64,000 nt of DNA, from positions 2,354,001 to 2,418,000 of the forward strand of contig NZ_CP118747.1 of NCBI RefSeq assembly GCF_030996345.1, given 5' to 3'. Both the position numbers and the translations under genes were made by a program. The notes under the pieces are model-generated. The model did no database searches and had not been told where the DNA came from. It saw only the letters and a list, made by a program, of their open reading frames with translations. This stretch comes from Acidithiobacillus sp. AMEEHan. Lineage in GTDB: Bacteria > Pseudomonadota > Gammaproteobacteria > Acidithiobacillales > Acidithiobacillaceae. How positions within the stretch are numbered: position 1 is the stretch's first letter; each line of letters opens with the position of its first letter. This document shows positions 16,007-44,880 of the stretch, piece by piece.

Positions 16007-17578
16007 TCAGACCCGCAGATCGCCGGGCTTTTGATCCCAGTCGAAAGCCGTGAGCATATCGTAGGCGTTGCGGTCTCGCTCCGTGAGCGGCGCCAGGCCA
16101 AAGCGCGTCTCGATAAATCTGAGGATGCTGGCGGTGCTCGCCAAGTGATGATCCACTAAGCCCGCGCGCGCCCAAGGACTGATCAGTAGGGCGGGAATGC
16201 GGGTGCCAAATCCATAGTCGTCCACCACTTTGGGCGGCAGAGAATCCCAGAAGCCGCCGCCCTCGTCATAGGTGATGAAAATGGCGGTCTTTTCCCAGGC
16301 TGGTCCCTCGGCAACCGCGCGCACCAGGCGCTCGACCCAGGCCATACCGACCGCCGGCGCCGAATCAGCAGGATGTTCGTCGTGGGCAGCGCTAGCCTTC
16401 AAAAAGGAAACCCCAGGAAGACGTCCCTGACGCGCATCCTCGAGAAAATCCTCAGCGTCGCGCATGTGGCCATTGCGCACGTATTCCGGCCAGTGTGGGT
16501 AGTACTGAAAAGGATTATGGTGGGCAACATACAGCTGGCTACTGTCGATGACTGCCGAACCATCGCCGGGGCCGAAGGCGGTTTTGAGCGCCCAGGGTTT
16601 GACCCGATTCCAGTTTTCGTTGTACCAGGCCCAATCCACTTTGGCGGCATCGAGACGATCGCCAATGTTGTCGTAGGTCTGCGCCGCAGGCGGCGGGCTG
16701 ATCTTCAGCACGTCGGGCTCGCCGGCATTGGTTGGCCCTTGTACTGGCGGTAGGTCGTTGACCATTACCCGGCGATGGTCGTAAGGCAAGTCAAAGAAAG
16801 CATGCTGCAACCCCGCTTCCTTGGGATCGAAGGGCGCGATATGGGCATCTGGCACTTGCGGGTTCACACAGGAACGACAGGCTGCCAAGTAGAGCGCATT
16901 GCCGGTACTGCCACCGCTCATGGCCTGATAGAAATGATCGAAAAGGACATACTCGTGGGCCATACGGTGATAGAAAGGCAGATCCACTGCCTCGTAATGG
17001 CCAATCACCGGACCACTGGGACGCGCCAAATCAAAAGCAATATCGGCAGGGCTCATCTTGCGGAATTCGTCGCGATGCAGGTGTCGGTGCGAGCTTCCTG
17101 CTAGGGCCACAAAGAGATCCATTTTGCCGTTGTTGACCTCTGCCATCATGCGGAAGAAGCGATGCTTGGGATCCCAGCGCACATTGCCGTCGGCAGGGAT
17201 GTACGGCGCCAAATGAAACGGCTGGTTGGGCAAACTCGCCTGGGTAAAACCCTCGATTTCCGTCGGCAACGGCAAATTCGCATAGGGGATCTCGGCGGGA
17301 TTTTTCTGCAGGTTGAAGAAGCGTGGATCGATCTTTCCATCCTTGTCGAGGAGATTGACCACTTGTTGCCCATTCTTCGGCCGAAAGGTGCCGAAGTAAT
17401 GATCAAAACTCCGATTTTCCTGAAAAATGACTACGACATGCTCAATCTTACTGCGCAGCATTTGTTCATTGCTGACACCAGCCGCACGGGCCACACCCAA
17501 CAGATGGGGGCCGGCAACGGCGGCACCAGCACCGAGGCCCAGTTGCCGCAAAAAAGATCTACGACTCAAACCCGCCAC
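16007..17578 (-). CDS. Tat-exported phospholipase C / acid phosphatase family phosphoesterase
   Basis: Exported phosphoesterase of the family (PF04185) that includes bacterial phospholipases C and AcpA acid phosphatase; it would release phosphate-containing groups outside the inner membrane. The 523-residue product begins with a twin-arginine signal, SRRSFLRQLGLGAGAAVAG. Family blocks follow: IEHVVVIFQENRSFDHYFGT near residue 45 and, near the C-terminus, ITYDEGGGFWDSLPP with RIPALLISPWARAG. The start is a GTG at 17578 with AAAGGAGC upstream. It is the last gene of the exbB-exbD-tonB-RNase T2 operon, 12 bp after the RNase. The shared Pho box suggests a phosphate-starvation role. Phospholipase and phosphatase activity cannot be told apart from sequence. 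Confidence 0.88.
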   Translation of the reverse strand: MAGLSRRSFLRQLGLGAGAAVAGPHLLGVARAAGVSNEQMLRSKIEHVVVIFQENRSFDHYFGTFRPKNGQQVVNLLDKDGKIDPRFFNLQKNPAEIPYANLPLPTEIEGFTQASLPNQPFHLAPYIPADGNVRWDPKHRFFRMMAEVNNGKMDLFVALAGSSHRHLHRDEFRKMSPADIAFDLARPSGPVIGHYEAVDLPFYHRMAHEYVLFDHFYQAMSGGSTGNALYLAACRSCVNPQVPDAHIAPFDPKEAGLQHAFFDLPYDHRRVMVNDLPPVQGPTNAGEPDVLKISPPPAAQTYDNIGDRLDAAKVDWAWYNENWNRVKPWALKTAFGPGDGSAVIDSSQLYVAHHNPFQYYPHWPEYVRNGHMRDAEDFLEDARQGRLPGVSFLKASAAHDEHPADSAPAVGMAWVERLVRAVAEGPAWEKTAIFITYDEGGGFWDSLPPKVVDDYGFGTRIPALLISPWARAGLVDHHLASTASILRFIETRFGLAPLTERDRNAYDMLTAFDWDQKPGDLRV

Positions 17579-17590
17579 GTGACGCTCCTT

Positions 17591-18421
17591 TCAAGGAAGA
17601 ATATGAATGTACTTGGCACAATTGCCCTTGCGCCCGGGCATAAATGCCTCTGGACGCGGAAACTCTTGCAGGCTATCGGCACGGATGGTGACCCAGGCCT
17701 CAGTAAGGATCGTTCCCTCCCCCTGCAGCTCGTGGCCGCTATGGTTGTCTTTGCTCTCGCAACGCAGTTCGAGGGACTCCGCGTTGGGAAGATGAAATGC
17801 CGTGCTATAAGCACGGAGCAGATCGTTGCGCTTGACCCATTGCCCGCGGTGCTCCCGCACATAGGCGGTAAAGCTGCTGGCATTGACGTCGCCCAACAAG
17901 CGTAGCGCCGTCTGAAAAAAGGGATCGGGCTTTTCCCCAAAACAGGCTTCATGCTTATAGTATTCGTGCCGGTCGAGACAAACCTTGCGCATGGGCATCT
18001 GCGCGCTCAACGCAGCACTTACTTTTGGCGACAGATCGAGAGGCGGCAGAGAACAGCTATCTTTTGGAGCAGTGCTTTGGTTTTGGAACCAGAAGCAGCC
18101 ATGCTCCCACCAAGTCTTGGGTTCCATGCCGCTGGCAACGAGTTTTTGCGGGCGACTCGCCCACAAGCCATGGAGACTCCACTGTTGGCTCGCCCGCGAA
18201 CTCGGCGTCAAGCCGTCGCAGGCGGCACTCACCCGTGTCCAGGTGGCACAAACGCCGGGCTGCCAGAGCATGGCGAAGGTGTAATGCTGAAATTTCAGCC
18301 CCGGCACCGCTGGGACCACGGTGGTTTCGGCCAGAACCGGCCCCACGAATGCCGTTACGAACAACGCCAACAAAAAAACCCGTGCAAGGTGTTTCAAAGC
18401 TCCCTCCAGATCGCTGACCAT
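17591..18421 (-). CDS. Secreted ribonuclease T2 family protein
   Basis: Periplasmic or extracellular endoribonuclease that makes 3'-phosphorylated products, useful for phosphate release from RNA. The 276-residue product has a signal peptide (ARVFLLALFVTAFVGPVLA, then ETT). Both catalytic signatures are present: CAS I as QQWSLHGLW and CAS II as RHEYYKHEACF. Several cysteines suggest disulfides. The ATG at 18421 has a poorly spaced ribosome site. An internal TTG seven codons on, directly after GGAGGGAGC, gives a more typical signal peptide and may be the true start. It lies between tonB (16 bp) and the phosphoesterase gene (12 bp). Confidence 0.92.
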   Translation of the reverse strand: MVSDLEGALKHLARVFLLALFVTAFVGPVLAETTVVPAVPGLKFQHYTFAMLWQPGVCATWTRVSAACDGLTPSSRASQQWSLHGLWASRPQKLVASGMEPKTWWEHGCFWFQNQSTAPKDSCSLPPLDLSPKVSAALSAQMPMRKVCLDRHEYYKHEACFGEKPDPFFQTALRLLGDVNASSFTAYVREHRGQWVKRNDLLRAYSTAFHLPNAESLELRCESKDNHSGHELQGEGTILTEAWVTIRADSLQEFPRPEAFMPGRKGNCAKYIHILP

Positions 18422-18437
18422 CCACGCTCAGGCGATA

Positions 18438-19160
18438 TTATGAATTTGCCGACAGATGGACTTCTACATCAAAGATTGTTGCTTTTTTTGGCATGTCTTT
18501 GGTGAATGGCGGATACACTCCGGCTTTCACCGCGGCGAGAGCCGCTCGATCGATGGCACCTACCCCACTGGACTGTGCCAACTTTGCCCAAACCAGGCTG
18601 CCCGAGGGCAGTAGTTCGAAGCTGATCACCGCCTTACCACTGAGGTGCATCAAACGCACCGCCTCCGGTACTCGCGCCTGCGACTGCACCTGTGCCCGCA
18701 CCAAAGCGGCATAGCGGGCGACGGCCGCTTGCGCAAGCGCCGGGCTTGGTGCCGGAGGTGGTGGAGGCGGCGGTGTGACAGGTGGCGCTGGCGGCACTAC
18801 CGGCGCCGTCGGCAGAGGCGCCTTGGCCACAAGGGGCTTTGGCGTTGGCGCGTGATGCACCACTGGATGCGGAACCGGGCGCGGAACCGGCCGAGGAATA
18901 GGCTTCGGCAAAGGTTTTGGGACCGGTTTGGGATGCACCACCGGCTTCGGAGGTGGCGGTAAGGGCTTGGGCTTGGGCGGCTGCACCATATGAATGGCGA
19001 TACGCTTCGGCTTGGGTGGCGGCGGTGGGCTTTTCTGATTGCTGACCCAGATCAGTCCTGCCACTAGGGCGATCTCGATGACGGCACCGATGATCAACGC
19101 ACGACCGAAATACCCTTTGGGCTGTGGCGCCGAGGAACGGTTAGACAAAACAGCACCCAT
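18438..19160 (-). CDS. tonB: TonB family energy transducer
   Basis: Links proton-motive force from ExbB-ExbD to outer-membrane receptors. The 240-residue product has one N-terminal membrane anchor (ALIIGAVIEIALVAGLIWV). A long Pro-Lys and Pro-Val periplasm-spanning region follows (about residues 45-140). The C-terminal TonB domain contains SGKAVISFELLPSGSL and YPPF. The ATG at 19160 follows the exbD stop by 1 base. Since exbD is broken by an IS66 copy, this gene may be poorly expressed or left without its partner, unless another exbD exists. No TonB-dependent receptor is in the window. Confidence 0.93.
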   Translation of the reverse strand: MGAVLSNRSSAPQPKGYFGRALIIGAVIEIALVAGLIWVSNQKSPPPPPKPKRIAIHMVQPPKPKPLPPPPKPVVHPKPVPKPLPKPIPRPVPRPVPHPVVHHAPTPKPLVAKAPLPTAPVVPPAPPVTPPPPPPPAPSPALAQAAVARYAALVRAQVQSQARVPEAVRLMHLSGKAVISFELLPSGSLVWAKLAQSSGVGAIDRAALAAVKAGVYPPFTKDMPKKATIFDVEVHLSANS

Positions 19161-19161
19161 C

Positions 19162-19438
19162 TCAGCTCGCCTTGGCCGCCAGGCCGATATCACTGGCACC
19201 CGCCTTTTGGCAAGTATCCATGACGTTGATGAATTTCTGGTAGGCCACCGCTTTATCTGCGGCGATGGTGATCACGGTCTTGCCTGGATCACCATCGTGA
19301 CGAATCAAATTTTCCAGGCCCGCCAGATCATAGTGCTGATTTTTGACCACCACTGAACCATCCTCTTGAATATTGATGGTCATATGCGGACGCGGCAACT
19401 GCTTGGCCTCGCTGGACTGCGGCAACTGCAGATTGAGC
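19162..19438 (-). pseudogene. exbD: exbD, 3' part (periplasmic domain) cut off by IS66
   Basis: This piece encodes the ExbD periplasmic domain: LQLPQSSEAKQLPRPHMTI, then QEDGSVVVKNQHYDL, VITIAADKAVAYQKFINVMD and KAGASDIGLAAKAS before a TGA. It has no start codon or membrane segment of its own. The matching 5' part lies at 21829-21958 on the far side of the IS66 element. Joining the halves with one copy of the 8-bp duplication gives an uninterrupted 132-residue ExbD. Apart from the insertion no damage is seen, so the disruption looks recent. Confidence 0.95.
19431..19438. repeat. Left target-site duplication of IS66 (GATTGAGC)
   Basis: Eight bases directly outside the left inverted repeat, identical to 21829-21836. 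In exbD the sequence occurs once, coding (on the minus strand) for the Gly-Leu-Asn region. Confidence 0.95.
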
Positions 19439-19465
19439 GTAACCGGTCTCCCCGCGGCGTTCTTT
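19439..19465 (+). repeat. IS66 terminal inverted repeat, tnpC end
   Basis: 27 bases starting GTAACCGGTCTCCCCGCGGC. It pairs with 21802-21828 on the other strand with about 22 of 27 identities. It overlaps the last bases of tnpC. Confidence 0.93.
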
Positions 19466-21059
19466 ATGCGGGCTTGCGGACGTGATACAGCGGAGAACGC
19501 AGGGGGTTGGCGGCGAAGTGCTCTTTCCAGAGTCTTGGGGTGAGCTGCGCCACGTCCTTGGCGGGGTGGGTGGCCACCCGTTGCAGGACATCGACGAGGT
19601 AGTCGTACGGGTCCACCCCCTGAAGCCGGCAGGTACTGAGCAGGCTCTGGATGATCCCGAGATACTCGGCGCCCAACTCGGTCCAGCAAAAGAGCCAGTT
19701 CTTCCGGCCCAGGGGAATCGGTCGGATCTGTCGTTCGATGTGGTTGCTGTCTATGGGTACGTCGGGATCTTCCAGAAAGACTTGGAGCGGACCTTTGCGG
19801 CCATGGACATAGGCCAAGGCCTTGGTGAAGAGGTTGCTCGGTAGCAGGGCGATGTCCTGGAGCTGTTGCTCTACCCAGTGGAAGAAGGCTGTCACCAGCG
19901 GCAGGGTATGTCGTCTGCGGTATTCCCGCTTGGCCTGCCCGGTGAGTTGTTTCTCCTGGATTTCTTCCTCGATGCGATAGAACTCCCGGATCTGCCGGAG
20001 GGCTTCGGCCACCCGCTCGGGCTCATGGGCCTCGGCCTTGACGAATTCTCTGCGGCTATGCGCCCAGCACTGGGCATGGACTAGCCCTTCGTTCTCTTTC
20101 TGGAACCGGGCATAGGCGGCATAGCCATCGCTCAGGAGTACGGTGCCCGGCGGCAGCTTGCCGAGTAGCTCTTCGATGTGGACCGTGCCCCGGGTGGCGG
20201 CATAGGGAAAGCAGATCTCCTGGGCATCGCCAAAGACGGGCCAGAAATACCCTCGGTGCATCTTGCCCTTCCCTGACAATCCGGCCTTGATGGGGGTTTC
20301 ATCCATGGTCAGCACCCGCGATTGGCGAATGCTCTCGAACTGCGCCGCATAAATCGGTGCAAGCAGGAAGATGGAGCGTTGCACCAAGTCCGTGAGCCAG
20401 GAGCGGCTCACCCGCAGCCCCTGCTGGGTCATGCGCTGATGTTGCCGATACAAGGGCAGATGGTAGAGGAATTTGTCGATCAGGATTCCCGCCAGGAGAC
20501 TGACGTCAGCCCGACCACCCTCCAAGACCGCGGCAGGCGCCGGGGCCTGGGTGATCTTTCCGGAGTCGCGCAGTTTCACTACGGGCCGCTCGTATTTGAG
20601 AACTACATAGCTGGCGGGCTCTTGGGCCAAGCGATAGCTGATCTTGGTGTCGATGATCTCATAGGCCGAAGGGTCCAGCCCCTGGGTCTCGGGAGCCGGC
20701 AGCACGATGGTTTCGACCGGCAGGCGCGATTCGTCGAAGAAGGGCAGGCTCTCTGCCTTCTCCTCGGGGCGCTTGGCCACCGTGCGGGTATGGGCAGCGA
20801 CGGTACGGGTAGGAACCGGCTGTTTTTCCTGCGCCTCGAAGATCTCGCCGAGACTGAGCTGCTCTATGGGAGGAGGCGGAAGACGGCGCTCGCTCTTGGG
20901 TCCGAAGAGCTGGCGGCGAAACCAATCCAGCTGGGCTTGAAGACCTTGGATCTGTGCCTGAAATTCTTCCCGCAGGGACTGGTTGAGGAGCACCTGCAAT
21001 TGCCAAGCGGCGAGGGCTTCGGGGTAGTTGCGTGGGAGCGAGGAAGTCTCTGTTTCCAT
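19464..21059 (-). CDS. tnpC: IS66 transposase TnpC (DDE)
   Basis: The 531-residue DDE transposase of the IS66 element. It has an N-terminal coiled coil and HTH segment (QIQGLQAQLDWFRRQLFGPK) and the SERR region. The catalytic core includes VLTMDETPIKAG, AYFLSDGYAAY-type sequence (here TVLLSDGYAAYARF) and HVHAQCWAHSRREF-like sequence (here HAQCWAHSRREF). DSNHIERQIRPIPLGRKNWLF and the C-terminal PYDYLVDVL follow. The frame is uninterrupted. It starts with ATG at 21059, 15 bp after tnpB. Confidence 0.96.
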   Translation of the reverse strand: METETSSLPRNYPEALAAWQLQVLLNQSLREEFQAQIQGLQAQLDWFRRQLFGPKSERRLPPPPIEQLSLGEIFEAQEKQPVPTRTVAAHTRTVAKRPEEKAESLPFFDESRLPVETIVLPAPETQGLDPSAYEIIDTKISYRLAQEPASYVVLKYERPVVKLRDSGKITQAPAPAAVLEGGRADVSLLAGILIDKFLYHLPLYRQHQRMTQQGLRVSRSWLTDLVQRSIFLLAPIYAAQFESIRQSRVLTMDETPIKAGLSGKGKMHRGYFWPVFGDAQEICFPYAATRGTVHIEELLGKLPPGTVLLSDGYAAYARFQKENEGLVHAQCWAHSRREFVKAEAHEPERVAEALRQIREFYRIEEEIQEKQLTGQAKREYRRRHTLPLVTAFFHWVEQQLQDIALLPSNLFTKALAYVHGRKGPLQVFLEDPDVPIDSNHIERQIRPIPLGRKNWLFCWTELGAEYLGIIQSLLSTCRLQGVDPYDYLVDVLQRVATHPAKDVAQLTPRLWKEHFAANPLRSPLYHVRKPA

Positions 21060-21074
21060 TGCAGAATCATAGCG

Positions 21075-21440
21075 CTAACTCCCAGTTTCCGCCAGTTTTT
21101 CGGGGACTTGGCGCTGATAGCGACGGCGTGTTTTGGCCACTTCGAGGCCCTCGAGCAGGAGTTTCAAACCGGTCCAATCCAACTCCCCCGCTGGAGGTCG
21201 CTGCCAGCTCCAGAATTGGCCGCGCTCCAGGCGCTTGGCCCAGAGGCAATACCCTGTGCGATCCCAGTAGATCACCTTCATCTGCGTGGCGCGGCGGTTC
21301 ACGAAGACGAAACAGTGCCCAGACAAGGGATCCTGCCCCAGGAACTGCCGCACCAAAGCCGACAGCCCGTCAAAAGACTTGCGCATGTCTACCGGTACCC
21401 GGCAGACGAAGACCCGGATGCGCCCCTCGGGAAAAAACAT
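21075..21440 (-). CDS. tnpB: IS66 accessory protein TnpB
   Basis: The 121-residue IS66 Orf2 protein, needed together with TnpA and TnpC for transposition. Typical blocks are DMRKSFDGLSALV, GHCFVFVNRRATQMKVIYWD and GYCLWAKRLERGQF. It begins one base after the tnpA stop. A broken copy of the same gene is found at 34482-34725. Confidence 0.95.
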   Translation of the reverse strand: MFFPEGRIRVFVCRVPVDMRKSFDGLSALVRQFLGQDPLSGHCFVFVNRRATQMKVIYWDRTGYCLWAKRLERGQFWSWQRPPAGELDWTGLKLLLEGLEVAKTRRRYQRQVPEKLAETGS

Positions 21441-21441
21441 C

Positions 21442-21741
21442 TCAGCCGCGGCGAATGGTAAGGGTGCAGCCGGCGCCCAAGTCCAGACGAATCTCCAAGG
21501 AAGAAATCCCTGTCTCCCGCTCGCTTGGCAATCCCAGCTTCAGGAACTCGGGCAAGGGGGCAACGCTGGAAGATGCCGCCGTCTTTTGGCTGGCCCCACC
21601 CCGCAGCCGCTGCCGCCAGTAGTAAAATTGCGAAAGAACCAGACCCTGCCCTTGGCAAAACTGCGGCGTTGACAGCCCGCTGGTCTCTTGTGCCGTCACC
21701 ATCTCCTGCCAATACCGCGTCTTTTCTTCCGAGCTGCGCAT
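21442..21741 (-). CDS. tnpA: IS66 accessory protein TnpA
   Basis: The IS66 Orf1 protein, a small helix-turn-helix type protein of about 99 residues from the ATG at 21741. RSSEEKTRYWQEMVTAQETS and SQFYYWRQRLRGG match the family. An in-frame ATG at 21777 would add 12 residues; the shorter start is favoured by a GGAG upstream and the usual family N-terminus. Confidence 0.88.
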   Translation of the reverse strand: MRSSEEKTRYWQEMVTAQETSGLSTPQFCQGQGLVLSQFYYWRQRLRGGASQKTAASSSVAPLPEFLKLGLPSERETGISSLEIRLDLGAGCTLTIRRG

Positions 21742-21801
21742 GATCTTACTTCTCCAAGCGTCCCAAGGAGCCATCATGCTGGCAACACAATACCCTCAAC
21801 G

Positions 21802-21828
21802 AAAGAACGCCGCGGAGCGATCGCTTAC
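21802..21828 (-). repeat. IS66 terminal inverted repeat, tnpA end
   Basis: 27 bases reading GTAAGCGATCGCTCCGCGGC on the minus strand. It mirrors 19439-19465 and abuts the right 8-bp duplication. Confidence 0.93.
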
Positions 21829-21836
21829 GATTGAGC
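21829..21836. repeat. Right target-site duplication of IS66 (GATTGAGC)
   Basis: Identical to 19431-19438. It marks the insertion point within exbD. Confidence 0.95.
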
Positions 21837-21958
21837 CCCTGATCCGGGATCATCTGGATCGTAATCATGATGAAAAACACCAGGAGGAAGAGCATGATAT
21901 CGATCATCGGAATGATCTCGATGCGGCCCTTCTTGCGTTCGAAGTAACGCCGTTCCAT
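21829..21958 (-). pseudogene. exbD: exbD, 5' part (membrane anchor) truncated by IS66
   Basis: Encodes the first 43 residues of ExbD: a basic start MERRYFERKKGRIEIIPMID with the proton-path aspartate, then the membrane helix IMLFLLVFFIMITIQM, up to PDQGLN. Translation then runs into IS66 sequence and stops near 21746, giving a 70-residue hybrid without the periplasmic domain. The ATG overlaps the exbB stop by one base. The conserved Asp and helix are intact, so only the insertion inactivates it. Confidence 0.95.
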
Positions 21959-22644
21959 CAGCTGGCCCTCGCCATCGCCACTGCCTGTGCGGCCGGTTCG
22001 CTGGGATCGGCGTCAGGATGCAACATGGGCTGTCCGTCCATGCGGTTGAGCAGCATGGTCTTCACCGAATCGAGCTGCAGCAGGATCATGCGTACCTGAT
22101 TGTTGAAGGCATTAAAAGTGAGCAGGCCCAGGATGGCAATGAACAGACCGGAAGCCGTGGCGACCAGGGCATCGGCAACGCCTGCGGTAACTTCCGTGGG
22201 TGCGTGGCCCGGCGCTGCCAGCACATGGAAGGCGTGGAACATGCCGATGATTGTCCCGAAGAGGCCGAGCAACGGGGCCAGGGTGATGATGGTATCGAGC
22301 AACCAGAGACGGCGGTCGAGTTGGGGGGCAAGCACGATCACTGCTTCTTCTAGGCGGTTGGCCAGGGCATCGCCCTTGACCTGGCCGGCGTGGCTGGCTG
22401 CCATGCGCAACAGGCTCGCCTCCGGCAGCCCACCCGCCTGTTCGGCGAGGCGGTCGAGCACGACGCGATCCAGGCGACCATGACTGGCCAGCTCATGAAC
22501 GATGGCGTCGCCGCGCGCCAAGGTGCGGCGCAGGTACCAGAAGCGGTCGACCATGACGGCAAGCTCGATCAGCAAGAGAAGCATCAGGACATAAAGAATG
22601 CCATCAGAATAGTTGGCCAGATGTACGAGGTAAGCGATGTTCAC
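21958..22644 (-). CDS. exbB: ExbB/TolQ-type proton channel subunit
   Basis: Inner-membrane subunit that with ExbD forms the proton channel energising TonB. The 228-residue product has three membrane segments: one near the N-terminus (DGILYVLMLLLLIELAVMV) and two in the conserved MotA/TolQ/ExbB region (LLGLFGTIIGMFHAF and GLFIAILGLLTFNAF). ALVATASGLFIAI carries the channel-lining Thr. The start is a GTG at 22644 with AGGAG nearby. It is the first gene of exbB-exbD-tonB-RNase T2-phosphoesterase, preceded by Pho box A. With exbD broken, the complex is probably incomplete. Confidence 0.94.
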   Translation of the reverse strand: MNIAYLVHLANYSDGILYVLMLLLLIELAVMVDRFWYLRRTLARGDAIVHELASHGRLDRVVLDRLAEQAGGLPEASLLRMAASHAGQVKGDALANRLEEAVIVLAPQLDRRLWLLDTIITLAPLLGLFGTIIGMFHAFHVLAAPGHAPTEVTAGVADALVATASGLFIAILGLLTFNAFNNQVRMILLQLDSVKTMLLNRMDGQPMLHPDADPSEPAAQAVAMARAS

Positions 22645-22690
22645 GGAAATACTCTCCTGATTTGGGAAGGCCTCAGGGTATCAGAATCGT

Positions 22691-22729
22691 GTGACACTAT
22701 GATGAAGCCTAGATGACAAAAATGTGACA
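22691..22729 (-). promoter_or_regulatory. Pho box A: four TGTCA-type repeats at 11-bp spacing upstream of exbB
   Basis: On the plus strand the hexamers GTGACA, ATGAAG, ATGACA and GTGACA start at 22691, 22702, 22713 and 22724, exactly 11 bp apart. Read towards exbB they are TGTCAC/TGTCAT repeats, the arrangement bound by PhoB dimers. They lie 47-85 bp before the exbB start in the only gap that can hold its promoter. The second unit is degenerate. Binding itself is inferred. Confidence 0.8.
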
Positions 22730-22740
22730 TTCGATGGCTT

Positions 22741-23526
22741 TTATTTCGCACGCGGAATGCTCAGGCGATAGCCGAACCCGTGCACGGTCTGCAACCAGCT
22801 CGAGGCCCCGACCTCCTCCAGCCGCTTGCGCAGGCGGTGAATCTGCGCGGCAACGGTGTTCTGTTGGATCTGCCGCTGGCTCATCGTCAGATGCTGCGCG
22901 ATCTCCATCGGTGAAAAGGCACGCTCCGACTGCTGCGCCATATAGTGAAACAAGCGGAATAAACGTTTAGTCAAGTCCAATTCCTGGTCAAAGATATACA
23001 CGCGACGACTCTCCGGATCGACACGTAGGATCCCAGGAATATCGATCACTGCCTGTTCCCAGGAATGTCCGTGACGCAGCAGCGCACTCGCCTGGGCCAA
23101 TACCAGCGCCTCGCTGGCAGGCGTCCCCACGTAGACATTGACACCCGCATCCAGAGCGATCATCGCCTCTTCGTCGCCTTCAGGGCCGAGTGCCATGACT
23201 GCTGTTCCACAATGCAGAAGCTCTCCCTGGCTTTCTAGCAAGGTGCCTGCCAGGTGGCTACCCCAGTCTGCGAAGATCAACAGCTGCGGCGACCACTGCC
23301 GCAGCTGCATGCCGAGCGCCCGGATATTCCGTACTTGCCTGGGCACGGCTCGCTGGCTCCGCAACCGCTTTTCAAGAGATTCCGCGAAGGGTCCGTTACC
23401 ATGCAGCATCACCCGCGCATGAAAGAGCGGATCGATCTCCTCCCAACGGGTGGCAGCAAGCATGGTCAAGAGCTCACGCAGGTGTGTGACGTGATGTACG
23501 CCTGCAGCGATAAGGGCATGGATCAT
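22741..23526 (-). CDS. Orphan OmpR/PhoB-type regulator with degenerate receiver domain
   Basis: A 261-residue DNA-binding protein. The C-terminal ~95 residues form an OmpR/PhoB winged helix: LDLTKRLFRLFHYMAQ, then VAAQIHRLRKRLEEVG and TVHGFGYRLSIP. The N-terminal half resembles a receiver only at its end (GDEEAMIALDAGVNVYVGTP). The usual Lys of the KP motif is replaced there (GTP instead of TKP), and the acidic pocket and phospho-Asp are not in normal positions (LLIFADWGSH). It is therefore probably not phosphorylated in the standard way. No histidine kinase is adjacent. Pho box B lies upstream, suggesting autoregulation or control by PhoB. ATG at 23526 has AGGGA seven bases upstream. Confidence 0.85.
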   Translation of the reverse strand: MIHALIAAGVHHVTHLRELLTMLAATRWEEIDPLFHARVMLHGNGPFAESLEKRLRSQRAVPRQVRNIRALGMQLRQWSPQLLIFADWGSHLAGTLLESQGELLHCGTAVMALGPEGDEEAMIALDAGVNVYVGTPASEALVLAQASALLRHGHSWEQAVIDIPGILRVDPESRRVYIFDQELDLTKRLFRLFHYMAQQSERAFSPMEIAQHLTMSQRQIQQNTVAAQIHRLRKRLEEVGASSWLQTVHGFGYRLSIPRAK

Positions 23527-23594
23527 GGCAAGTCCCTATGTATGATTGCGGTGTACGAACGAAGATACCTTACGCTGCAGTGTAACGTTTTTAT

Positions 23595-23633
23595 GTTACG
23601 TTTTTATGAATCTTTTATGACATTTTTGTGACA
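23595..23633 (-). promoter_or_regulatory. Pho box B: four 11-bp repeats between the regulator and plcP
   Basis: Plus-strand hexamers GTTACG, ATGAAT, ATGACA and GTGACA start at 23595, 23606, 23617 and 23628. Poly-T spacers separate them. Read on the minus strand they are CTGTCACAAAAATGTCATAA and so on, pointing at the regulator gene 69 bp away. A further near-repeat (TGTAACGTTTTTA then TGTTACGTTTTTA) extends it to 23581. The divergent plcP gene starts 94 bp away on the other side and may share the site. Confidence 0.82.
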
Positions 23634-23726
23634 GTTTACTGACCGATGCCGCCTTTGCCGGAATGCGAGACAAAGACTTCTCGACACGGCTATAATCCCT
23701 AGAAATCCTCGGCCAGAACATTTTCC

Positions 23727-24572
23727 ATGACCGAATTTCCACCAAGCTCATCTCCCAAAGCCAGACACGGCAACTATCGCACCATCTTTGTTTCCGACAT
23801 CCATCTGGGTAGCAAAGGCTGTCAGGCCGAGGCATTACTGGATTTCCTTCGCCACCATGAAGCCGAGCATCTCTATCTGGTGGGCGACATCATCGATTTC
23901 TGGGCCCTGAAACGGCGCTGGTACTGGCCCGTTGCGCATAGCACCGTCATTCAAAAGGTGCTGCGCCAGGCTCGGGCCGGAGTGCAGGTCACCTACGTGC
24001 AAGGCAATCATGATCCTGTCCTGAGCCTGCTGGGCTCCTTTTTGGAGGGGGACGAGCACAAACTCGCTGTAGGAGAAATCCGTATCGTTCCGCATTGTGT
24101 CCACCAAACTGCCGATGGACGCCAGTTGTGGATCACCCACGGCGACCAATTTGATCTCAGCATGCACTACGCCCGCTGGCTCACCCATCTGGGCGATCGT
24201 GGCTACAGCCTCCTATTGACCCTGAACCGATGGCATCAACGCCTCAATCGCCTTCTGGGAATCCGCAGTCATTGGTCCTTGAGCGCCTTCGTCAAACATC
24301 GTATCAAACGCGCCGTGCAGTTCATCAGTCAGTATGAGGAATTCGTCGCGCGGGAATGTCGCCGCGGAGGCTACGACGGCGTCGTCTGCGGCCACATCCA
24401 TCATGCCGAAATCAAGCGGATGAACGGCATCGAATACTACAACGATGGCGACTGGGTGGAGAGCTGCACCGCTTTGGTGGAAGACTTTGACGGCACCCTA
24501 CGGCTGGTTCGTTGGCCGGATCTGGAAACGCCTGCGCAACAAGTCATCTCATCGCGTCTGGAGACGGAATGA
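23727..24572 (+). CDS. plcP: Metallophosphoesterase, PlcP-type phospholipase C (LpxH-like fold)
   Basis: Predicted cytoplasmic metallophosphoesterase of 281 residues. The metal motifs are VSDIHLG, GDIIDFW, GNHD, THGDQFD and CGHIHHAEI. The blocks HLYLVGDIIDFWALKRRWYW and NDGDWVESCTALVED match the family of PlcP, the Pho-induced phospholipase C of Sinorhizobium meliloti that cuts membrane phospholipids to diacylglycerol. Such proteins are often misnamed UDP-2,3-diacylglucosamine hydrolase (LpxH). The adjacent glycosyltransferase overlaps by 4 bp (ATGA), the pairing expected for phospholipid-to-glycolipid exchange. LpxH activity remains the main alternative. Confidence 0.82.
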   Translation: MTEFPPSSSPKARHGNYRTIFVSDIHLGSKGCQAEALLDFLRHHEAEHLYLVGDIIDFWALKRRWYWPVAHSTVIQKVLRQARAGVQVTYVQGNHDPVLSLLGSFLEGDEHKLAVGEIRIVPHCVHQTADGRQLWITHGDQFDLSMHYARWLTHLGDRGYSLLLTLNRWHQRLNRLLGIRSHWSLSAFVKHRIKRAVQFISQYEEFVARECRRGGYDGVVCGHIHHAEIKRMNGIEYYNDGDWVESCTALVEDFDGTLRLVRWPDLETPAQQVISSRLETE

Positions 24573-25585
24573 AAATTACCCTGGTTACTGATGCGTGGTC
24601 CCCCCAGGTGAACGGTGTTGTCCGCGCCTTGCAGGCGACGGTCAAGGAGCTGCGGAGGCTGGGACATGAAGTGCATGTGCTTCATAACGGTGATGGCCCC
24701 ACCATGCCCTGCCCCAGTTATCCGGAAATTCCCCTTGCCACTCAGCCGTTCGCCCTCGTCCGACAAACTTTTCAGGAAAACCTTCCAGACGCCATACACA
24801 TTGCCACAGAAGGCCCACTGGGTCTTGCTGCACGGCTTTGGTGCGCAGGCCACCAGTGGCAGTTCACCACATCCTTTCACACCCGTTTTGCCGAATATCT
24901 TGCCGCCAGGTCCCCCGTGCCCCTCGCCTGGAGCTATGCTTTCTTGCGCTGGTTCCATAACGGCGCCGCGCACACCATGGTGTCCAATGCCGCTTTGGCC
25001 GACGAATTACGGACCTGGGGTTTTCGTAATCTGACGCAATGGAGCCGCGGCGTCGATAGTTCACTCTTTCGGCCCTGGCCTGGGCAAGACCCGCGCGAAA
25101 TTCTCCCTGGCGCGCGACCGGCTTTCGTGTATTTTGGTCGCGTGGCTGTCGAGAAAAATGTGGAAGACTTCCTCTGTCTCGACCTCCCAGGCAGCAAGCA
25201 CGTCGTTGGCGACGGACCGCAGGCCGACGAACTGCGCCACAAATACCCGGATGTGCATTGGCATGGTATGCGTCACGGTGAAGACCTGAGCCGCCACGTC
25301 GCAGCCGCTGACGTCATGGTCTTTCCCAGCCGCACCGATACGCTCGGTCTGGTGGTACGCGAGGCGAATGCCTGCGGCGTGCCTGTAGCCGCCTACCCGG
25401 TAACCGGTCCGCAGGCCAGTATCGTCGACGGACTCAATGGTTATCTTCGCGACGACTTGCGGGAAGCTGCTCTTCTCGCCCTTAACCTGCGGCGCGACGA
25501 CTGCCGCAACGTCGCCTTGCAGTATAGTTGGGATAAGTGCACGAAAGATTTTCTCGAGCACCTCGTTCCCGTGCAGGGGAACTAA
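24569..25585 (+). CDS. GT4-family glycosyltransferase, probably diacylglycerol glycosyltransferase
   Basis: GT-B fold transferase of 338 residues. It opens MKITLVTDAWSPQVNGVVRA. Further marks are FTTSFHTRFAEYL in the acceptor domain, SRGVDSSLF at the domain junction, and the nucleotide-sugar site HGMRHGEDLS followed by VFPSRTDTLGLVVREANACG. This pattern is shared by SqdX, MgtA and the Agt-type lipid glycosyltransferases. The start codon overlaps the plcP stop, so both are made together; PlcP would supply diacylglycerol and this enzyme would glycosylate it. With sqdB nearby, the donor could be UDP-sulfoquinovose (SqdX role) or another UDP-sugar. The donor cannot be settled by reading. Confidence 0.8.
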   Translation: MKITLVTDAWSPQVNGVVRALQATVKELRRLGHEVHVLHNGDGPTMPCPSYPEIPLATQPFALVRQTFQENLPDAIHIATEGPLGLAARLWCAGHQWQFTTSFHTRFAEYLAARSPVPLAWSYAFLRWFHNGAAHTMVSNAALADELRTWGFRNLTQWSRGVDSSLFRPWPGQDPREILPGARPAFVYFGRVAVEKNVEDFLCLDLPGSKHVVGDGPQADELRHKYPDVHWHGMRHGEDLSRHVAAADVMVFPSRTDTLGLVVREANACGVPVAAYPVTGPQASIVDGLNGYLRDDLREAALLALNLRRDDCRNVALQYSWDKCTKDFLEHLVPVQGN

Positions 25586-26974
25586 TCAGGCCGCTTCCCG
25601 AGCGATTACCTTGGCATCCGGCTTGCCACCGGTTTCCGGCAAGGTCTCGCCCGCCATCTCCACCCCCAGAACTTGCGTCAACACTGCGCCCAGAAGCCCG
25701 GCCGAGGCAAGGATGAGAAGCAAACCACCGACACCAAAATGTGCTTGGAGGATGGGTAACAAAAAGACACTGGTCGCGGCGCCGACTCGACTGAATGCCG
25801 TACTGAAGCCATGACCGCTGGCGCGAAGCTCGGTGGGGTAGAGCTCGGTGGGAATGATCCAGGTAGTATTGCCGGGACCAAAACTGTTAGCCACCTGGAA
25901 AAGAATCAGGCCCACTGCGACGATGGCGAAGGGAGGTTCCCCCGTCAGGGCGAAGACGCCAACCAGAGCCAGACCCACAGCATCTCCGAGGAAACCCCAG
26001 ATCTGCGTCTTGCGTCGACCAATGCGGTCAATGAGCAGAGCCAACGGTACCCAGCCAAACACAAAGCTCGCCGTGAACACGGCGTTTCCAATCACCGCTT
26101 GCTCCGGGGTGTGCAGGCCCAGATGCAAGAGCATGATCGGCAGGAAGATAGCCATGGCATATCCCATCACGTCCATGAGAAACCAAGGGATGGCCGCGTA
26201 CAGCGTACGGCGGAGATAGGTTTTGCCAAACAGATCGAACCAGTTGTGTTGCTTTGCGCCTTCCATGCTAGCCGCCAGTTCCTGCAACGCCGCTTGCCGC
26301 TCGGATTCACTGAGTTGGGGTGCGAGCCAGCTGACCACTTCATTGGCCTCCTGCAGACGACCTCGGCGGATGAACCAACGCGGTGACTCCGGCAGATTGC
26401 GCCGAAGCCACAGCACCAGGACCGCTGGAACGGCACCAGAAACCAGCATCCATCGCCAAGCATCCGGACCAGAGTGCAAGAGTGCGATTCCCACTATACT
26501 GGAGACCAAGGCACCCCCCATCCACAAGCCAAAAATCCAGGTCATGGCTGCACCCCGCGACTTTTTCGGGAGGAATTCCGCCATGTACGTGGAGCTCAGA
26601 GGGTAATCGGCGCCCACTCCCAGCCCAAGGAAAAAACGTAGCACGATTAGTGACGTGGCATCCCAGGCAAAGCCGGAAAGCAACGCCGCAAAGAAAAATG
26701 CGGCAATGTCGATCAGGTAAATCGTTTTACGCCCCCAACGATCGGCGATTGGCCCACCGAACAGCCCGCCTACCAACGCGCCCACCAGCGCCGCGGTACC
26801 CAGCCCCCCCAATTCGGACGGCGCCAGGTGCCACTGCTCCTTGAGCAGGATCAGGGCAATGGCCATGATGCTGAGGTCATAGCCATCGAGAAAAATACCC
26901 AGACCCGAGGCCCACAATATGCGCCGGTGTTTCCGCGTAACCGCTTGCCGATCGAGGACATTGACCGCATTCAT
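25586..26974 (-). CDS. MFS transporter, Pho84-like (phosphate:H+ symporter family) features
   Basis: A 462-residue, 12-segment carrier. LGIFLDGYDLSIMAIAL in TM1, LGVGADYPLSSTYMAEFLPK in TM4, and NSFGPGNTTWIIPTELYPTE in the second half resemble the Pho84/PHS group (GPN-TTF-P-E-FPT signature) and the related sugar-acid carriers. Pho box C lies 48-64 bp upstream of the ATG (26974, preceded by AGGAGCG). A phosphate or phosphoester import role fits this setting but is inferred. It ends one base from the convergent glycosyltransferase. Two relatives occur at 55995-57325 (broken) and 58719-60179. Confidence 0.8.
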   Translation of the reverse strand: MNAVNVLDRQAVTRKHRRILWASGLGIFLDGYDLSIMAIALILLKEQWHLAPSELGGLGTAALVGALVGGLFGGPIADRWGRKTIYLIDIAAFFFAALLSGFAWDATSLIVLRFFLGLGVGADYPLSSTYMAEFLPKKSRGAAMTWIFGLWMGGALVSSIVGIALLHSGPDAWRWMLVSGAVPAVLVLWLRRNLPESPRWFIRRGRLQEANEVVSWLAPQLSESERQAALQELAASMEGAKQHNWFDLFGKTYLRRTLYAAIPWFLMDVMGYAMAIFLPIMLLHLGLHTPEQAVIGNAVFTASFVFGWVPLALLIDRIGRRKTQIWGFLGDAVGLALVGVFALTGEPPFAIVAVGLILFQVANSFGPGNTTWIIPTELYPTELRASGHGFSTAFSRVGAATSVFLLPILQAHFGVGGLLLILASAGLLGAVLTQVLGVEMAGETLPETGGKPDAKVIAREAA

Positions 26975-27021
26975 GAACGCTCCTGCGAATTCTGACGAAG
27001 GTTCGAGAGTAGCACAGAATT

Positions 27022-27038
27022 ATGACACTTTTATGAAC
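27022..27038 (-). promoter_or_regulatory. Pho box C: paired repeat between the Pho84-like gene and sqdB
   Basis: ATGACA at 27022 and ATGAAC at 27033 are 11 bp apart. On the minus strand this reads GTTCATAAAAGTGTCATAA, close to the enterobacterial Pho box. It points towards the MFS gene and sits in the 191-bp gap shared with sqdB on the other strand. Confidence 0.72.
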
Positions 27039-27165
27039 GTGCCAGACCGAGACGCCAAGGATTCCCATTTGTAATAATTGCGTCATATTTCCAGCCAATT
27101 TGCCGAGCATTGCCATGGAACCAGACTCTCGTCTACTCTTGAGCAAGGAATGTTAGGAACGACCC

Positions 27166-28362
27166 ATGATGCAAAAACGAATACTGGTGTTGGGTGGTGA
27201 CGGATTTTGTGGCTGGCCCACCACCCTGCATCTCTCTGCCCACGGCCACGAGCTTTTTATCATCGACAACATGGTACGGCGCCGGCAGGATGAGGAATTA
27301 GGCGTAGAGTCCCTCACCCCAATTCGCTCTCTGTCCGAACGCCTCGAGACTTGGCGACAATCTACCGGGCAAGCAATCGGACACGCCACCTTTGATATCG
27401 CCCGCGATTACAACGAACTCAAATCGCTCATCAAAGATTGGCGTCCTGACGCCATCGTTCACTTTGCGGAGCAACGCTCTGCCCCTTATTCCATGAAATC
27501 CCCTTGGCACAAGCGTTACACGGTCGATAACAACCTCAATGCCACCCATAACGTTCTCTGCGCCATTGTCGAAAATGGCATGGAAGAGTCCTGCCATTTG
27601 GTGCACTTGGGGACCATGGGAGTCTACGGCTACAAAACTTCCAGTTTCAAGCTACCCGAGGGATACCAAAAGGTTCGCTTGCTCTCTCCCGAAAATGGCG
27701 AAGAAAGTGAGGATACGGAAATCCTCTATCCGCCGGATCCGGGGTCCATTTACCACATGACCAAAACCCAGGATCAATTGTTCTTTTACTTTTATAACAA
27801 GAATGATGGGTTACGCATCACCGATTTGCATCAGGGGATCGTATGGGGCACTGAAACCGAGGAAACCAGTCGCGATGAGCGCCTGATCAATCGCTTCGAT
27901 TACGATGGCGATTTTGGCACGGTACTGAATCGTTTTATCCTGCAAGCCGCCGTTGGGCATCCGCTGACGGTGCACGGCACTGGCGGACAAACGCGTGCCT
28001 TTATCCACATCCGGGATACGGTACAGTGCATCCGTTTGGCTATTGAACATCCGCCGGCACCGGGAGAGCGGGTGCGGGTTTTCAACCAAACTACCGAGAC
28101 TCATCGCGTACGCGATCTCGCGCGCCTGATTCACGAACTGACAGGTGCGGAACTGCAATTTGTGGATAATCCGCGCAAAGAACAAACAGAAAACGAGCTT
28201 TTGGTGGAAAATCAGGGATTACAAAACCTTGGCCTGCAACCAATAACCCTCTCCGCCGGCCTCCTCGCGGAAGTGTCGGAAATTGCCGCCAAATACCAAG
28301 ATCGTTGTCGCCGGAGCAAAATCCCCGCGCGCTCTCTATGGCGAGCGCGTAGGGACATGTAA
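27166..28362 (+). CDS. sqdB: UDP-sulfoquinovose synthase (SqdB/SQD1)
   Basis: NAD-dependent short-chain dehydrogenase-type enzyme that turns UDP-glucose and sulfite into UDP-sulfoquinovose, the head-group donor of sulfolipid. The 398-residue product follows the SQD1 pattern: VLGGDGFCGWPTTLHLS, DNMVRRRQDEELGVESLTPI and HFAEQRSAPYSM. The catalytic Thr lies in LGTMGVYG and the Tyr-Lys pair in YHMTKTQDQ. RITDLHQGIVWGTET and AAVGHPLTVHGTGGQTRAF follow. Sulfolipid replaces anionic phospholipids under phosphate limitation. sqdX is not separately present; the nearby GT4 gene is the candidate. It ends 4 bp from the convergent ppk2. Confidence 0.95.
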   Translation: MMQKRILVLGGDGFCGWPTTLHLSAHGHELFIIDNMVRRRQDEELGVESLTPIRSLSERLETWRQSTGQAIGHATFDIARDYNELKSLIKDWRPDAIVHFAEQRSAPYSMKSPWHKRYTVDNNLNATHNVLCAIVENGMEESCHLVHLGTMGVYGYKTSSFKLPEGYQKVRLLSPENGEESEDTEILYPPDPGSIYHMTKTQDQLFFYFYNKNDGLRITDLHQGIVWGTETEETSRDERLINRFDYDGDFGTVLNRFILQAAVGHPLTVHGTGGQTRAFIHIRDTVQCIRLAIEHPPAPGERVRVFNQTTETHRVRDLARLIHELTGAELQFVDNPRKEQTENELLVENQGLQNLGLQPITLSAGLLAEVSEIAAKYQDRCRRSKIPARSLWRARRDM

Positions 28363-28366
28363 CGTC

Positions 28367-29503
28367 TTAGCTTTCCCGTGGTGGCTGGAAGGGGTTGAGG
28401 TCCTGCGGGCAGGTCTCGCCATACATCACATGGGCACGACTGACGATGAGATTGTCCACCTTGCCAATCGCTTGGACATCCTTGTTTTCGTAAGGGATGG
28501 TATGCAAAAGGTGGCGCATGGCATTGAGGCGCGCCCGTTTTTTATCGTCGGATTTGACCACCGTCCACGGCGCATAAGCAGTATCGGTATGAAAAAAAAT
28601 CGTCTCCTTGGCACGGGTGTAATCTTCCCAGCGATCCAATGAAGCGAGATCCATGGGCGATAATTTCCATTGCTTCAACGGATGATGCCGACGTTCTTCG
28701 AATCGTCGACGTTGTTCTTCGCGAGTAACGGAAAACCAGAACTTGACCAAGTAGATGCCACTGTAGACCAAATGCCGCTCAAATTCCGGCGCCTGACGCA
28801 TGAACTCTTGATATTCCTGCTCACTGCAAAAACCCATGACCCGTTCGACACCGGCTCGGTTATACCAGGAGCGATCCAGAAAGACCATTTCTCCGGCGGT
28901 AGGTAGTTGCTCAACATAGCGCTGAAAATACCATTGCCCTTTCTCTTTTTCCGATGGTTTTTCCAGCGCCACCACCCGCGCCCCGCGCGGATTGAGATGC
29001 TCCATGAAGCGTTTTATGGTACCCCCCTTGCCTGCTGCATCTCGCCCTTCAAAGACCACCACCAGCCGCTGTCCGGTGTTCTTCACCCAAGCTTGCAATT
29101 TCAGCAGCTCCACCTGGAGATCGTATTTCAGATACTCATAGTCGCGACGGGTCATGCGATTTTTATAGGGATAGCCGCCACTACGCCAATCGGGGTTGAG
29201 GGTATCGTCGGTATCGGCAACCCGTTCCTTTTCGAGCTCAGCGTGGATCATACGAATGTCATCCTCAGAAACGTCGGAGGCGACGATACCCAAAGCCGCG
29301 GCAATGTTCCCGCTGCTGGCATCCAGCTGGTGTTCGGCAAGATAGCGTCGCACTGCTGCGAGATGATGTTGCTGCGCCATTTCCGTACTGTCGCTGACAA
29401 CAAAATTGCGGATTCCTGTTGGGCTCAGGTCGTCCGGGATATCGGTAACTTTCGCGGCTGTGGGATCGGCATCCTGGACCTCCACCACGGTTTTTTCGGA
29501 CAT
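28367..29503 (-). CDS. ppk2: Polyphosphate kinase 2
   Basis: PPK2 transfers phosphate between polyphosphate and nucleotides, mainly regenerating ATP or GTP from stored polyphosphate. The 378-residue product has an N-terminal extension of about 120 residues, then the kinase core. Walker A is VVFEGRDAAGKGGTIKRFME. The lid is GQWYFQRYVEQLP followed by VFLDRSWYNRAGVERVMGFC, and the C-terminal block is YAPWTVVKSDDKKRARLNAM. The ATG at 29503 has AAGGAGG six bases upstream. Pho box D lies 46-62 bp before the start, so polyphosphate use is tied to phosphate supply. Confidence 0.94.
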   Translation of the reverse strand: MSEKTVVEVQDADPTAAKVTDIPDDLSPTGIRNFVVSDSTEMAQQHHLAAVRRYLAEHQLDASSGNIAAALGIVASDVSEDDIRMIHAELEKERVADTDDTLNPDWRSGGYPYKNRMTRRDYEYLKYDLQVELLKLQAWVKNTGQRLVVVFEGRDAAGKGGTIKRFMEHLNPRGARVVALEKPSEKEKGQWYFQRYVEQLPTAGEMVFLDRSWYNRAGVERVMGFCSEQEYQEFMRQAPEFERHLVYSGIYLVKFWFSVTREEQRRRFEERRHHPLKQWKLSPMDLASLDRWEDYTRAKETIFFHTDTAYAPWTVVKSDDKKRARLNAMRHLLHTIPYENKDVQAIGKVDNLIVSRAHVMYGETCPQDLNPFQPPRES

Positions 29504-29548
29504 CGCAGCCTCCTTCTCGCACGGAAAGCCGTAGTCTAGCAGAGCAAT

Positions 29549-29565
29549 GTGACGTTTTTATGACA
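29549..29565 (-). promoter_or_regulatory. Pho box D: near-consensus PhoB site upstream of ppk2
   Basis: GTGACG at 29549 and ATGACA at 29560, 11 bp apart. Read on the minus strand the site is CTGTCATAAAAACGTCACA, which differs little from the E. coli Pho box. A TAGACT -10-like hexamer follows about 11 bases downstream, then the ppk2 ribosome site. Confidence 0.82.
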
Positions 29566-44161: not shown

Positions 44162-44880
44162 TTCACTCCCTTATGTCAAGGCGTCGGCACACTAAATTCA
44201 CTTTTACTCGCTATTCACACTCCTGCACTGTTCAGAAGGGCGCTGCAATCGCGTTTGGGCTCTACCACGATCATGAGTGATCTGGCCAACAATCGCTAAC
44301 TTGACGCCCAATTTCATAAAGCAATATTCGTTCCGCACAATACTTGCTACCGACAGCGCCAACGTCTCAACTATTTTCATGATTTGGAATATGATTAATA
44401 CCTCCCTCTCATGTTGCAGAAAAGGAGATTTTGTGGTGCAGCCTGCCCATCGTTGGTGCGCATCGCGATTCTTCGCACCGGCGTGGTGCGGAGCCACATA
44501 GCTGCGATGTTTGCAGAATGACGGATGCCCTGGAGGATCAGAATTATCGCGCCACTCATGTAAGCTTGAAACATGTTTAGTTGTCGTGCGGTAACAAAGG
44601 CGGTGGCTGATCAATCAAATTCGGCAAGAAACTTTACGTAAATGTAAAACTTTTGTTACAGTCAAGCTGTCGGACGGTTATTGGGAAAAGCCGATTGAGT
44701 TGAATCCATCGTCTGCTTGGAGTACTTAAAAACTCCATTTCCGACGCGAGTGAGAATTTGCGACTTGGCAGGACCAAAGCAGAGGCCGCACTGAAAAATC
44801 AGCGAACGAATGGAAGTGTGAGGTGCCCTGAGCGGCGAGCTTTTGCTTCTTTACGATCAATAATGTCGTAGCGCTGCTGC
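44162..44880. other. 719-bp gap upstream of bcsA without a convincing gene
   Basis: Open frames here are short, biased and lack ribosome sites. The gap must hold the bcs promoter. A 10-bp palindrome TTTACGTAAA lies at 44633-44642, followed by TGTAAAAC and TTTTGTTACAG in an AT-rich patch; it is a plausible operator. Nothing else is recognised. Confidence 0.5.

Follow-up and report, generated by a model that had tools for sequence, protein, structure and literature searches.

In the Acidithiobacilli, Osorio et al. 2008 (PMC2631029) described a FecA3-ExbBD-TonB-SLP-PhoD cluster that lies downstream of PhoB-like regulators and was read as a system for Fe(III) uptake; the main text of that paper does not use the term 'pho box'. 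The cluster resembles the locus described here in that a receptor, ExbBD-TonB and a phosphatase follow a PhoB-like regulator, and the two are probably the same cluster in related genera. Unlike in that account, a Pho-type promoter is present here across the compared loci, and exbD is split in our strain. The PUMA3-linked exbB2D2-tonB4 genes of P. aeruginosa likewise encode ExbB, ExbD and TonB behind a PhoB-bound pho box, but according to PMC4971064 their transcription additionally needs the sigma factor VreI, whereas the box found here is followed directly by an extended -10, to judge from the promoter sequence. In Flavobacterium (PMC8115612, parts on PusCD), TonB-type transporters that are induced by phosphate depletion are encoded together with phosphatases and phosphodiesterases, similar to the present arrangement; these are SusC/SusD-type complexes, whereas the receptors scanned here consist of a plug and a barrel and are accompanied by co-operonic ExbB, ExbD and TonB. 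Receptors of the PhoB regulon were also proposed to import alternative phosphate donors in Caulobacter crescentus (PMC11208175), an account that includes no Pho-controlled ExbB-ExbD-TonB operon in the parts describing the receptors. The main texts of three further papers on this class (PMC11021618, PMC8528912, PMC8886135) do not mention TonB, and we found no report of Pho boxes before Acidithiobacillus TonB genes in a search that covered mainly openly accessible main texts.

The window analysed here is a stretch of 64,000 nucleotides from the genome of Acidithiobacillus sp. AMEEHan. A domain scan of its minus strand gave the gene order ExbB, ExbD, TonB, RNase T2 and PF04185 phosphoesterase (Table 1), with joints between a 1-nt overlap and a 16-nt gap, the insertion aside. 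The first-pass annotation had described these genes as an operon; its gene order holds, but exbD is split by an IS66-type element. This element is flanked by exact 8-bp duplications (GATTGAGC), ends in inverted repeats of ca. 28 nt that are 86% complementary, and carries three transposition ORFs; its gene layout and the 8-bp duplication are what lead us to take it for an IS66 member, by the usual criteria of that family. Its 8 full-length, 100% identical copies in the genome suggest a recent insertion. When the flanks are joined in silico, an ExbD frame of 132 residues results. The operon is thus interrupted in this genome and its exbB, exbD and tonB set is incomplete, so that the function of the Pho-TonB system in this strain is probably impaired, to judge from the gene sequences; a stand-in for the split exbD is conceivable, since three further ExbD-family genes and four further TonB_C genes occur elsewhere in the genome. 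The PF04185 protein matches the acid phosphatase model TIGR03397 and the phospholipase C model TIGR03396 below their cut-offs, and both this enzyme and the RNase T2 are predicted to be exported. RNase T2 enzymes yield nucleotides rather than phosphate. Of the two secreted phosphate-releasing enzymes originally proposed, the PF04185 protein is therefore left as the only direct phosphate-releasing candidate.

Table 1. Features of the TonB operon and its surroundings (positions in the window)
Feature	Position	Strand	Remarks
PF04185 phosphoesterase (acid phosphatase / phospholipase C superfamily)	16007-17578	minus	N-terminus SRRSFLRQ, which we take to be Tat-like
RNase T2 family	17591-18421	minus	hydrophobic N-terminus, HGLW and EYYKH motifs
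tonB	18438-19160	minus	TonB_C over cut-off
exbD, 3' part	19162-19438	minus	
IS66-type element within exbD	19439-21828		2,390 bp; target duplications 19431-19438 and 21829-21836
ORFs of the IS66-type element (three)	21442-21777, 21075-21440, 19464-21059	minus	
exbD, 5' part	21829-21958	minus	holds one copy of the target duplication
exbB	21958-22644	minus	MotA/TolQ/ExbB family, GTG start
Extended -10, TGATACCCT	22675-22683	minus	6 nt past the last Pho unit; TGnTAnnnT in 19/19 loci, spacing identical
Pho box	22690-22729	minus	four 11-bp steps: TGTCACATTTT TGTCATCTAGG CTTCATCATAG TGTCACA; units kept in 19/19 loci
PhoB-like regulator	22741-23526	minus	degenerate receiver and PhoB-type winged helix; overlooked in the first-pass annotation
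Second Pho box array with TAnnnT	23579-23644	minus	before the regulator gene
Calcineurin-like phosphoesterase	23727-24572	plus	
GT4 glycosyltransferase	24569-25585	plus	
MFS transporter	25586-26974	minus	phosphate:H+ symporter model, below cut-off
Weaker Pho box, with extended -10	27006-27049	minus	22.9 bits; before the MFS gene
UDP-sulfoquinovose synthase-like (SQD1-like)	27166-28362	plus	below family cut-off

The repeat lies in the gap between the regulator gene and exbB and has the properties of a Pho-type promoter: TGTCA-type cores recur as direct repeats about every 11 bp, ahead of a -10. In minus-strand orientation, its last unit TGTCACA is separated by CGATTC from TGATACCCT, in which TACCCT (22675-22680) is the proposed -10 hexamer of exbB. 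Positions 22691-22729 (minus strand) match the four-unit pattern with 11-bp steps without a mismatch. With up to 3 mismatches allowed, this pattern has two matches in the window, the second at 23595-23633 with 2 mismatches, and none of 100 shuffles reached two. The textbook pattern CTGTCATNNNNCTGTCAT with 3 mismatches gave 10 matches vs 4.63 expected and is too loose to decide. A first matrix of 29 nt is circular, because the exbB promoters themselves supplied its sites; its maximum on 40 simulated windows was 16.0, with 21 matches of at least 10. The deciding test for the site in the window was instead a 44-nt matrix for which only other genomes supplied the sequences (29 distinct receptor promoters), the training sites being chosen by the first matrix plus a TAnnnT match. 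With this matrix the exbB site scores 40.9 bits and the one ahead of the regulator gene 42.7, whereas none of 40 simulated 64-kb windows exceeded 10.1. The four-unit repeat at exact 11-bp spacing noticed at first pass is therefore real. Its conservation together with the -10 in all loci compared, and the lack of Pho boxes further down the operon, give strong sequence support to phosphate control of the TonB genes.

Upstream of tonB, RNase T2 and acpA (the phosphoesterase gene), nothing above -6.9 was found with the 44-nt matrix in any locus scored, so the unit has just one Pho promoter, at its head. A generic promoter scan placed two sites on the operon strand, in exbD (21921-21894) and within the phosphoesterase gene (16541-16514); the 4 promoter-like sites between 15700 and 24000 correspond to chance frequency (2.9 expected), and weak internal promoters may exist. 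Terminator-like sites in the same interval (7 vs 7.9 expected) are uninformative.

For comparison, 12 to 20 kb around the regulator orthologue was taken from 18 related genomes, and the gap between regulator gene and exbB was compared in 19 loci including the window. All 19 have the three 11-bp steps and, exactly 6 nt past the last unit, TGnTAnnnT, although near-copies among them (L044-L046; L048-L052) mean that the loci do not represent 19 independent events. The order regulator-exbB is found in all 18 related loci. A whole exbD follows exbB in all 16 relatives whose sequence extends that far (those of L050 and L052 stop short of it), with a length of 132-133 residues in 15 and an unresolved start in L043. 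Further downstream, RNase T2 is present in 10 of 13 loci, being missing from L044-L046, and acpA is found in 12/12 loci that extend far enough (L041 ends about 170 nt past the RNase gene). Six loci (L041, L042, L043, L047, L048, L049) carry a gene of ca. 800 codons between exbD and tonB; three of these genes, scanned in full, encode plug and barrel receptors, and barrel matches cover the other three. A TonB-dependent receptor thus occupies this interval in 6 of the 15 loci that show both genes, and in L051 a receptor follows exbD on a contig that ends ahead of tonB. The interval holds no receptor in the other nine (five congeneric loci, L044-L046 and L053), and the operon in the window likewise contains none. 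Between tonB and RNase T2, both L041 and L042 encode an ABC transporter similar to 2-aminoethylphosphonate transporters, with all matches below cut-offs. Six loci of genus g2 (L047-L049, L051-L053) possess a second ExbB homologue about 5.8 kb from the first exbB and 41-43% identical to the ExbB of the window; it is accompanied by exbD in all six and by a tonB match in five, and in G015, G008 and G016 of this genus the receptor scored near it has its own Pho box.

The suggested search for Pho boxes before TonB-dependent receptors turned out positive. The set of 97 receptor genes comprised 96 of 112 family matches and one gene from G023. A Pho box of at least 15 bits was found upstream of 35 of them, whereas 970 shuffled upstream regions, which preserve base composition only, reached at most 14.9. 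Another seven receptors belong to exbB operons that have a Pho box. A further row represents the 3' fragment of a receptor that is split in the present genome and has a Pho box at its 5' part. Among the 35 boxed genes, TAnnnT occurs at the offset of the exbB promoter in 29 (in the extended form in 22); none of the other 25 of 26 offsets tried had more than 6, in a count for which the Pho sites were selected without use of the -10. A receptor tree of 94 rows (three fragments below 640 residues left out), made by a quick method and with long-branch warnings, contains one clade of 23 rows with support 99 in which all members are Pho-linked, 16 by their own boxes and 7 through operons. The Pho labels require 16 changes on the tree vs a shuffled mean of 33.9, and 0/200 shuffles were as low; Pho-boxed receptors also occur outside this clade, so the link was gained or lost several times. 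Small remnants of receptors of this clade exist in another genus member (G003:C1:1087123-1087576), which suggests repeated loss. In locus L114, a receptor, an OprD-like porin and a complete SBP_bac_6-type ABC transporter are consecutive and in one direction, suggesting a whole import route from the outer to the inner membrane.

In the genus of the window, members of this receptor family are encoded at other places in the genomes, and many of these genes have a Pho box of their own. The present genome has five receptor matches, three of them with Pho boxes (C1:153957, a whole frame; C1:435659-439295; and the match at C1:1704932), whereas C1:1190399 and C1:332270 have no Pho box upstream. The receptor at C1:435659-439295 is split by a transposase-bearing insertion that has 4 identical copies in the genome, and the one at C1:1704932 by an insertion, with at least 19 identical copies, at the position of residue 587 of its G007 relative. 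This last receptor is part of a second cluster, receptor-exbB-exbD-tonB, that has a strong Pho box (L148, C1:1701000-1709000), and a 100% identical copy (1,241 bases) of the element that splits it lies in the window at 54661-55901 (C1:2408661-2409901). Three different elements thus interrupt exbD and two of the three Pho-boxed receptors, which may point to relaxed selection on the system in this strain. Three insertions in about 13.5 kb of Pho-TonB genes seem unusual, with a Poisson probability of 0.0006 to 0.03 for assumed rates, which is not proof, as size and rates are estimates and the question was posed post hoc.

A pattern search of the whole genome for Pho boxes with up to 2 mismatches gave 9 matches, which fall on 8 places because two overlap in register, and the reversed-pattern control gave none. 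Further Pho boxes are found in front of pst-like genes and an MFS transporter. They also occur before an OprO/P porin that has a phytase-like gene behind it, before two OprD-like porins (an SBP_bac_6 ABC transporter accompanies one), and before a GNAT gene, presumably of the OlsB type; the box at C1:539720 (L101) has no certain gene attached. In the window, positions 44617-44660 (minus strand) score 15.7 with the receptor-promoter matrix vs the null maximum of 10.1. Beside the operon, lipid-remodelling and phosphate genes are clustered at 23579-29565. We assume that the calcineurin-like phosphoesterase is PlcP-like and the GT4 glycosyltransferase Agt-like. The best Pho box in plcP's own direction scored 11.0 among 8 loci (L038), barely over the null maximum, and 0.3 in the window; for the UDP-sulfoquinovose synthase gene the best of 6 loci was only 5.8. 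A PPK2-type gene, named from its reading frame, has a weak Pho-like site at 29537-29565 (12.3 in the window). In marine bacteria, plcP-agt pairs are described as lipid-remodelling genes with predicted Pho boxes.

We read the locus, as it occurs in the Acidithiobacillaceae, as a phosphate-starvation TonB module for a putative phosphorus ligand, with a probability of roughly 0.6. On phosphate shortage a PhoB-type activator, either canonical PhoB, the adjacent PhoB-like protein or both, would bind the 11-bp repeats and recruit RNA polymerase to the extended -10, and exbB-exbD-(receptor)-tonB-RNase T2-phosphoesterase would be transcribed as a single unit. ExbB, ExbD and TonB may then energise outer-membrane receptors under Pho control, through which a phosphorus-bearing ligand would enter. 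The RNase and the phosphoesterase, if exported, would degrade nucleic acids and phosphate esters. The first-pass proposal of TonB-driven uptake of a phosphorus compound gains from the Pho control seen in the 19 promoters and at the receptors; for the cargo, phosphorus is a candidate. Against it we count the receptor missing between exbD and tonB in most loci that show both genes, the split exbD in this strain and several iron-like resemblances.

These resemblances feed the main rival, PhoB-controlled uptake of Fe(III), in which the receptors would import Fe(III) complexes and phosphate released by the enzymes would serve as an iron chelator, a role proposed by Osorio et al. 2008, or the supplies of phosphate and iron would be coupled. 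The receptors match profiles of siderophore and heme families, in every case below cut-off; one receptor searched by sequence against solved structures gave no match at E 0.01, and an AlphaFold model (mean pLDDT 25.8) was unusable. Some receptor neighbours have a redox or iron flavour (cytochrome b561, multicopper oxidase), L041 has a sub-threshold match to a ferrous permease, and the binding proteins resemble ferric-binding proteins in sequence. For the SBP_bac_6-type protein near a Pho-boxed receptor, the best solved relative is 4r72, titled as an Fe3+ system component, which we take to be the sugar-phosphate binder AfuA. Paired tyrosines of the FbpA/HitA type bind Fe(III), but the YY of the HitA motif NNYYWY aligns with no tyrosine in the binding protein of this genome, nor in that of L041, which has one tyrosine nearby; the ABC binding protein thus lacks the pair. 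The feature conserved in the promoters is the Pho box, and a scan with the Fur consensus, though weak, showed no conserved site in the 19 exbB promoters (the lowest-ranking, L039, was equalled in 9/200 shuffles). In the receptor upstream regions the same weak scan gave a mild excess, with at least 13/19 matches in 8/97 vs 34/970 shuffles. Moreover, the enzymes of the operon act on phosphorus compounds. The reading of the FecA3-ExbBD-TonB and phosphatase cluster below a PhoB-like regulator as phosphate-associated Fe(III) uptake (PMC2631029) speaks for iron, as does the direct PhoB regulation reported to ease iron limitation in Synechocystis (PMC11126600, the main text of which mentions neither exbB nor TonB). 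On balance we consider import of iron as such unlikely, though a serious competitor.

Less probable still is control of the operon not by PhoB but by the adjacent pseudo-receiver protein, in answer to a signal other than phosphate. This regulator has 261 residues with a C-terminal winged helix of the PhoB type; its model (mean pLDDT 79.1) matches 1gxp, the PhoB effector domain on pho box DNA, with a TM-score of 0.83 by target length and 35% identity. The N-terminal half is receiver-like, with an aspartate at the phospho-acceptor position in only 7 of 14 aligned orthologues and N, G, E, S or P in the others, so that the conserved aspartate expected of a PhoB orthologue is missing; against the NCBIfam PhoB model it scores 80.1, with a cut-off of 296.2. 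Besides the degenerate receiver, its constant position next to exbB and the homologues beside Pho-boxed receptors in L117, L185 and L200 argue for such a role; in these three loci the paralogue is divergent from the receptor, behind which lie a surface-protein-like gene and cytochrome b561. On the other side, pst-like and phosphate-transport-like genes show the same design of box and -10 upstream, a Pho box lies before the gene of the regulator itself in 12/19 loci, and a canonical PhoB is encoded at C1:2225994-2226659 (300.9 bits vs the cut-off of 296.2). The regulator may act as a phosphorylation-independent partner of PhoB. That the TonB genes just ride along in an enzyme operon for phosphate scavenging and power receptors in general, without a phosphorus ligand of their own, would fit the operons lacking a receptor (the window, the five congeneric loci, L044-L046 and L053) but is very improbable given the Pho-boxed receptor genes elsewhere in genomes of the same genus and the receptors inside the operon in other genera.

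TonB-driven uptake through the outer membrane is generally taken to serve iron, and a phosphate-starvation TonB module for a phosphorus ligand would bear on an older question. The many iron uptake systems of Acidithiobacillus ferrooxidans, with eleven putative TonB-dependent receptors, were called surprising in view of its iron-rich water (PMC2621215, in the sections on these systems). One rather speculative extension, which we hold to be doubtful, is that in acid iron-rich water the receptors import phosphate in the form of ferric-phosphate or ferric-organophosphate complexes, and that many proteins annotated as siderophore receptors in the Acidithiobacillaceae are phosphorus receptors switched on by phosphate starvation. 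If a large share of such receptors responds to phosphate instead of iron (among the 97 studied here, 35 have a box of their own, 7 lie in Pho-boxed operons, and a split gene has a box too), the puzzle of the iron receptors would become directly testable and many annotations as 'ferri-siderophore receptor' would need revision. The operon itself would join the few ExbB-ExbD-TonB operons under phosphate control that are known elsewhere, here in a chemolithoautotroph.
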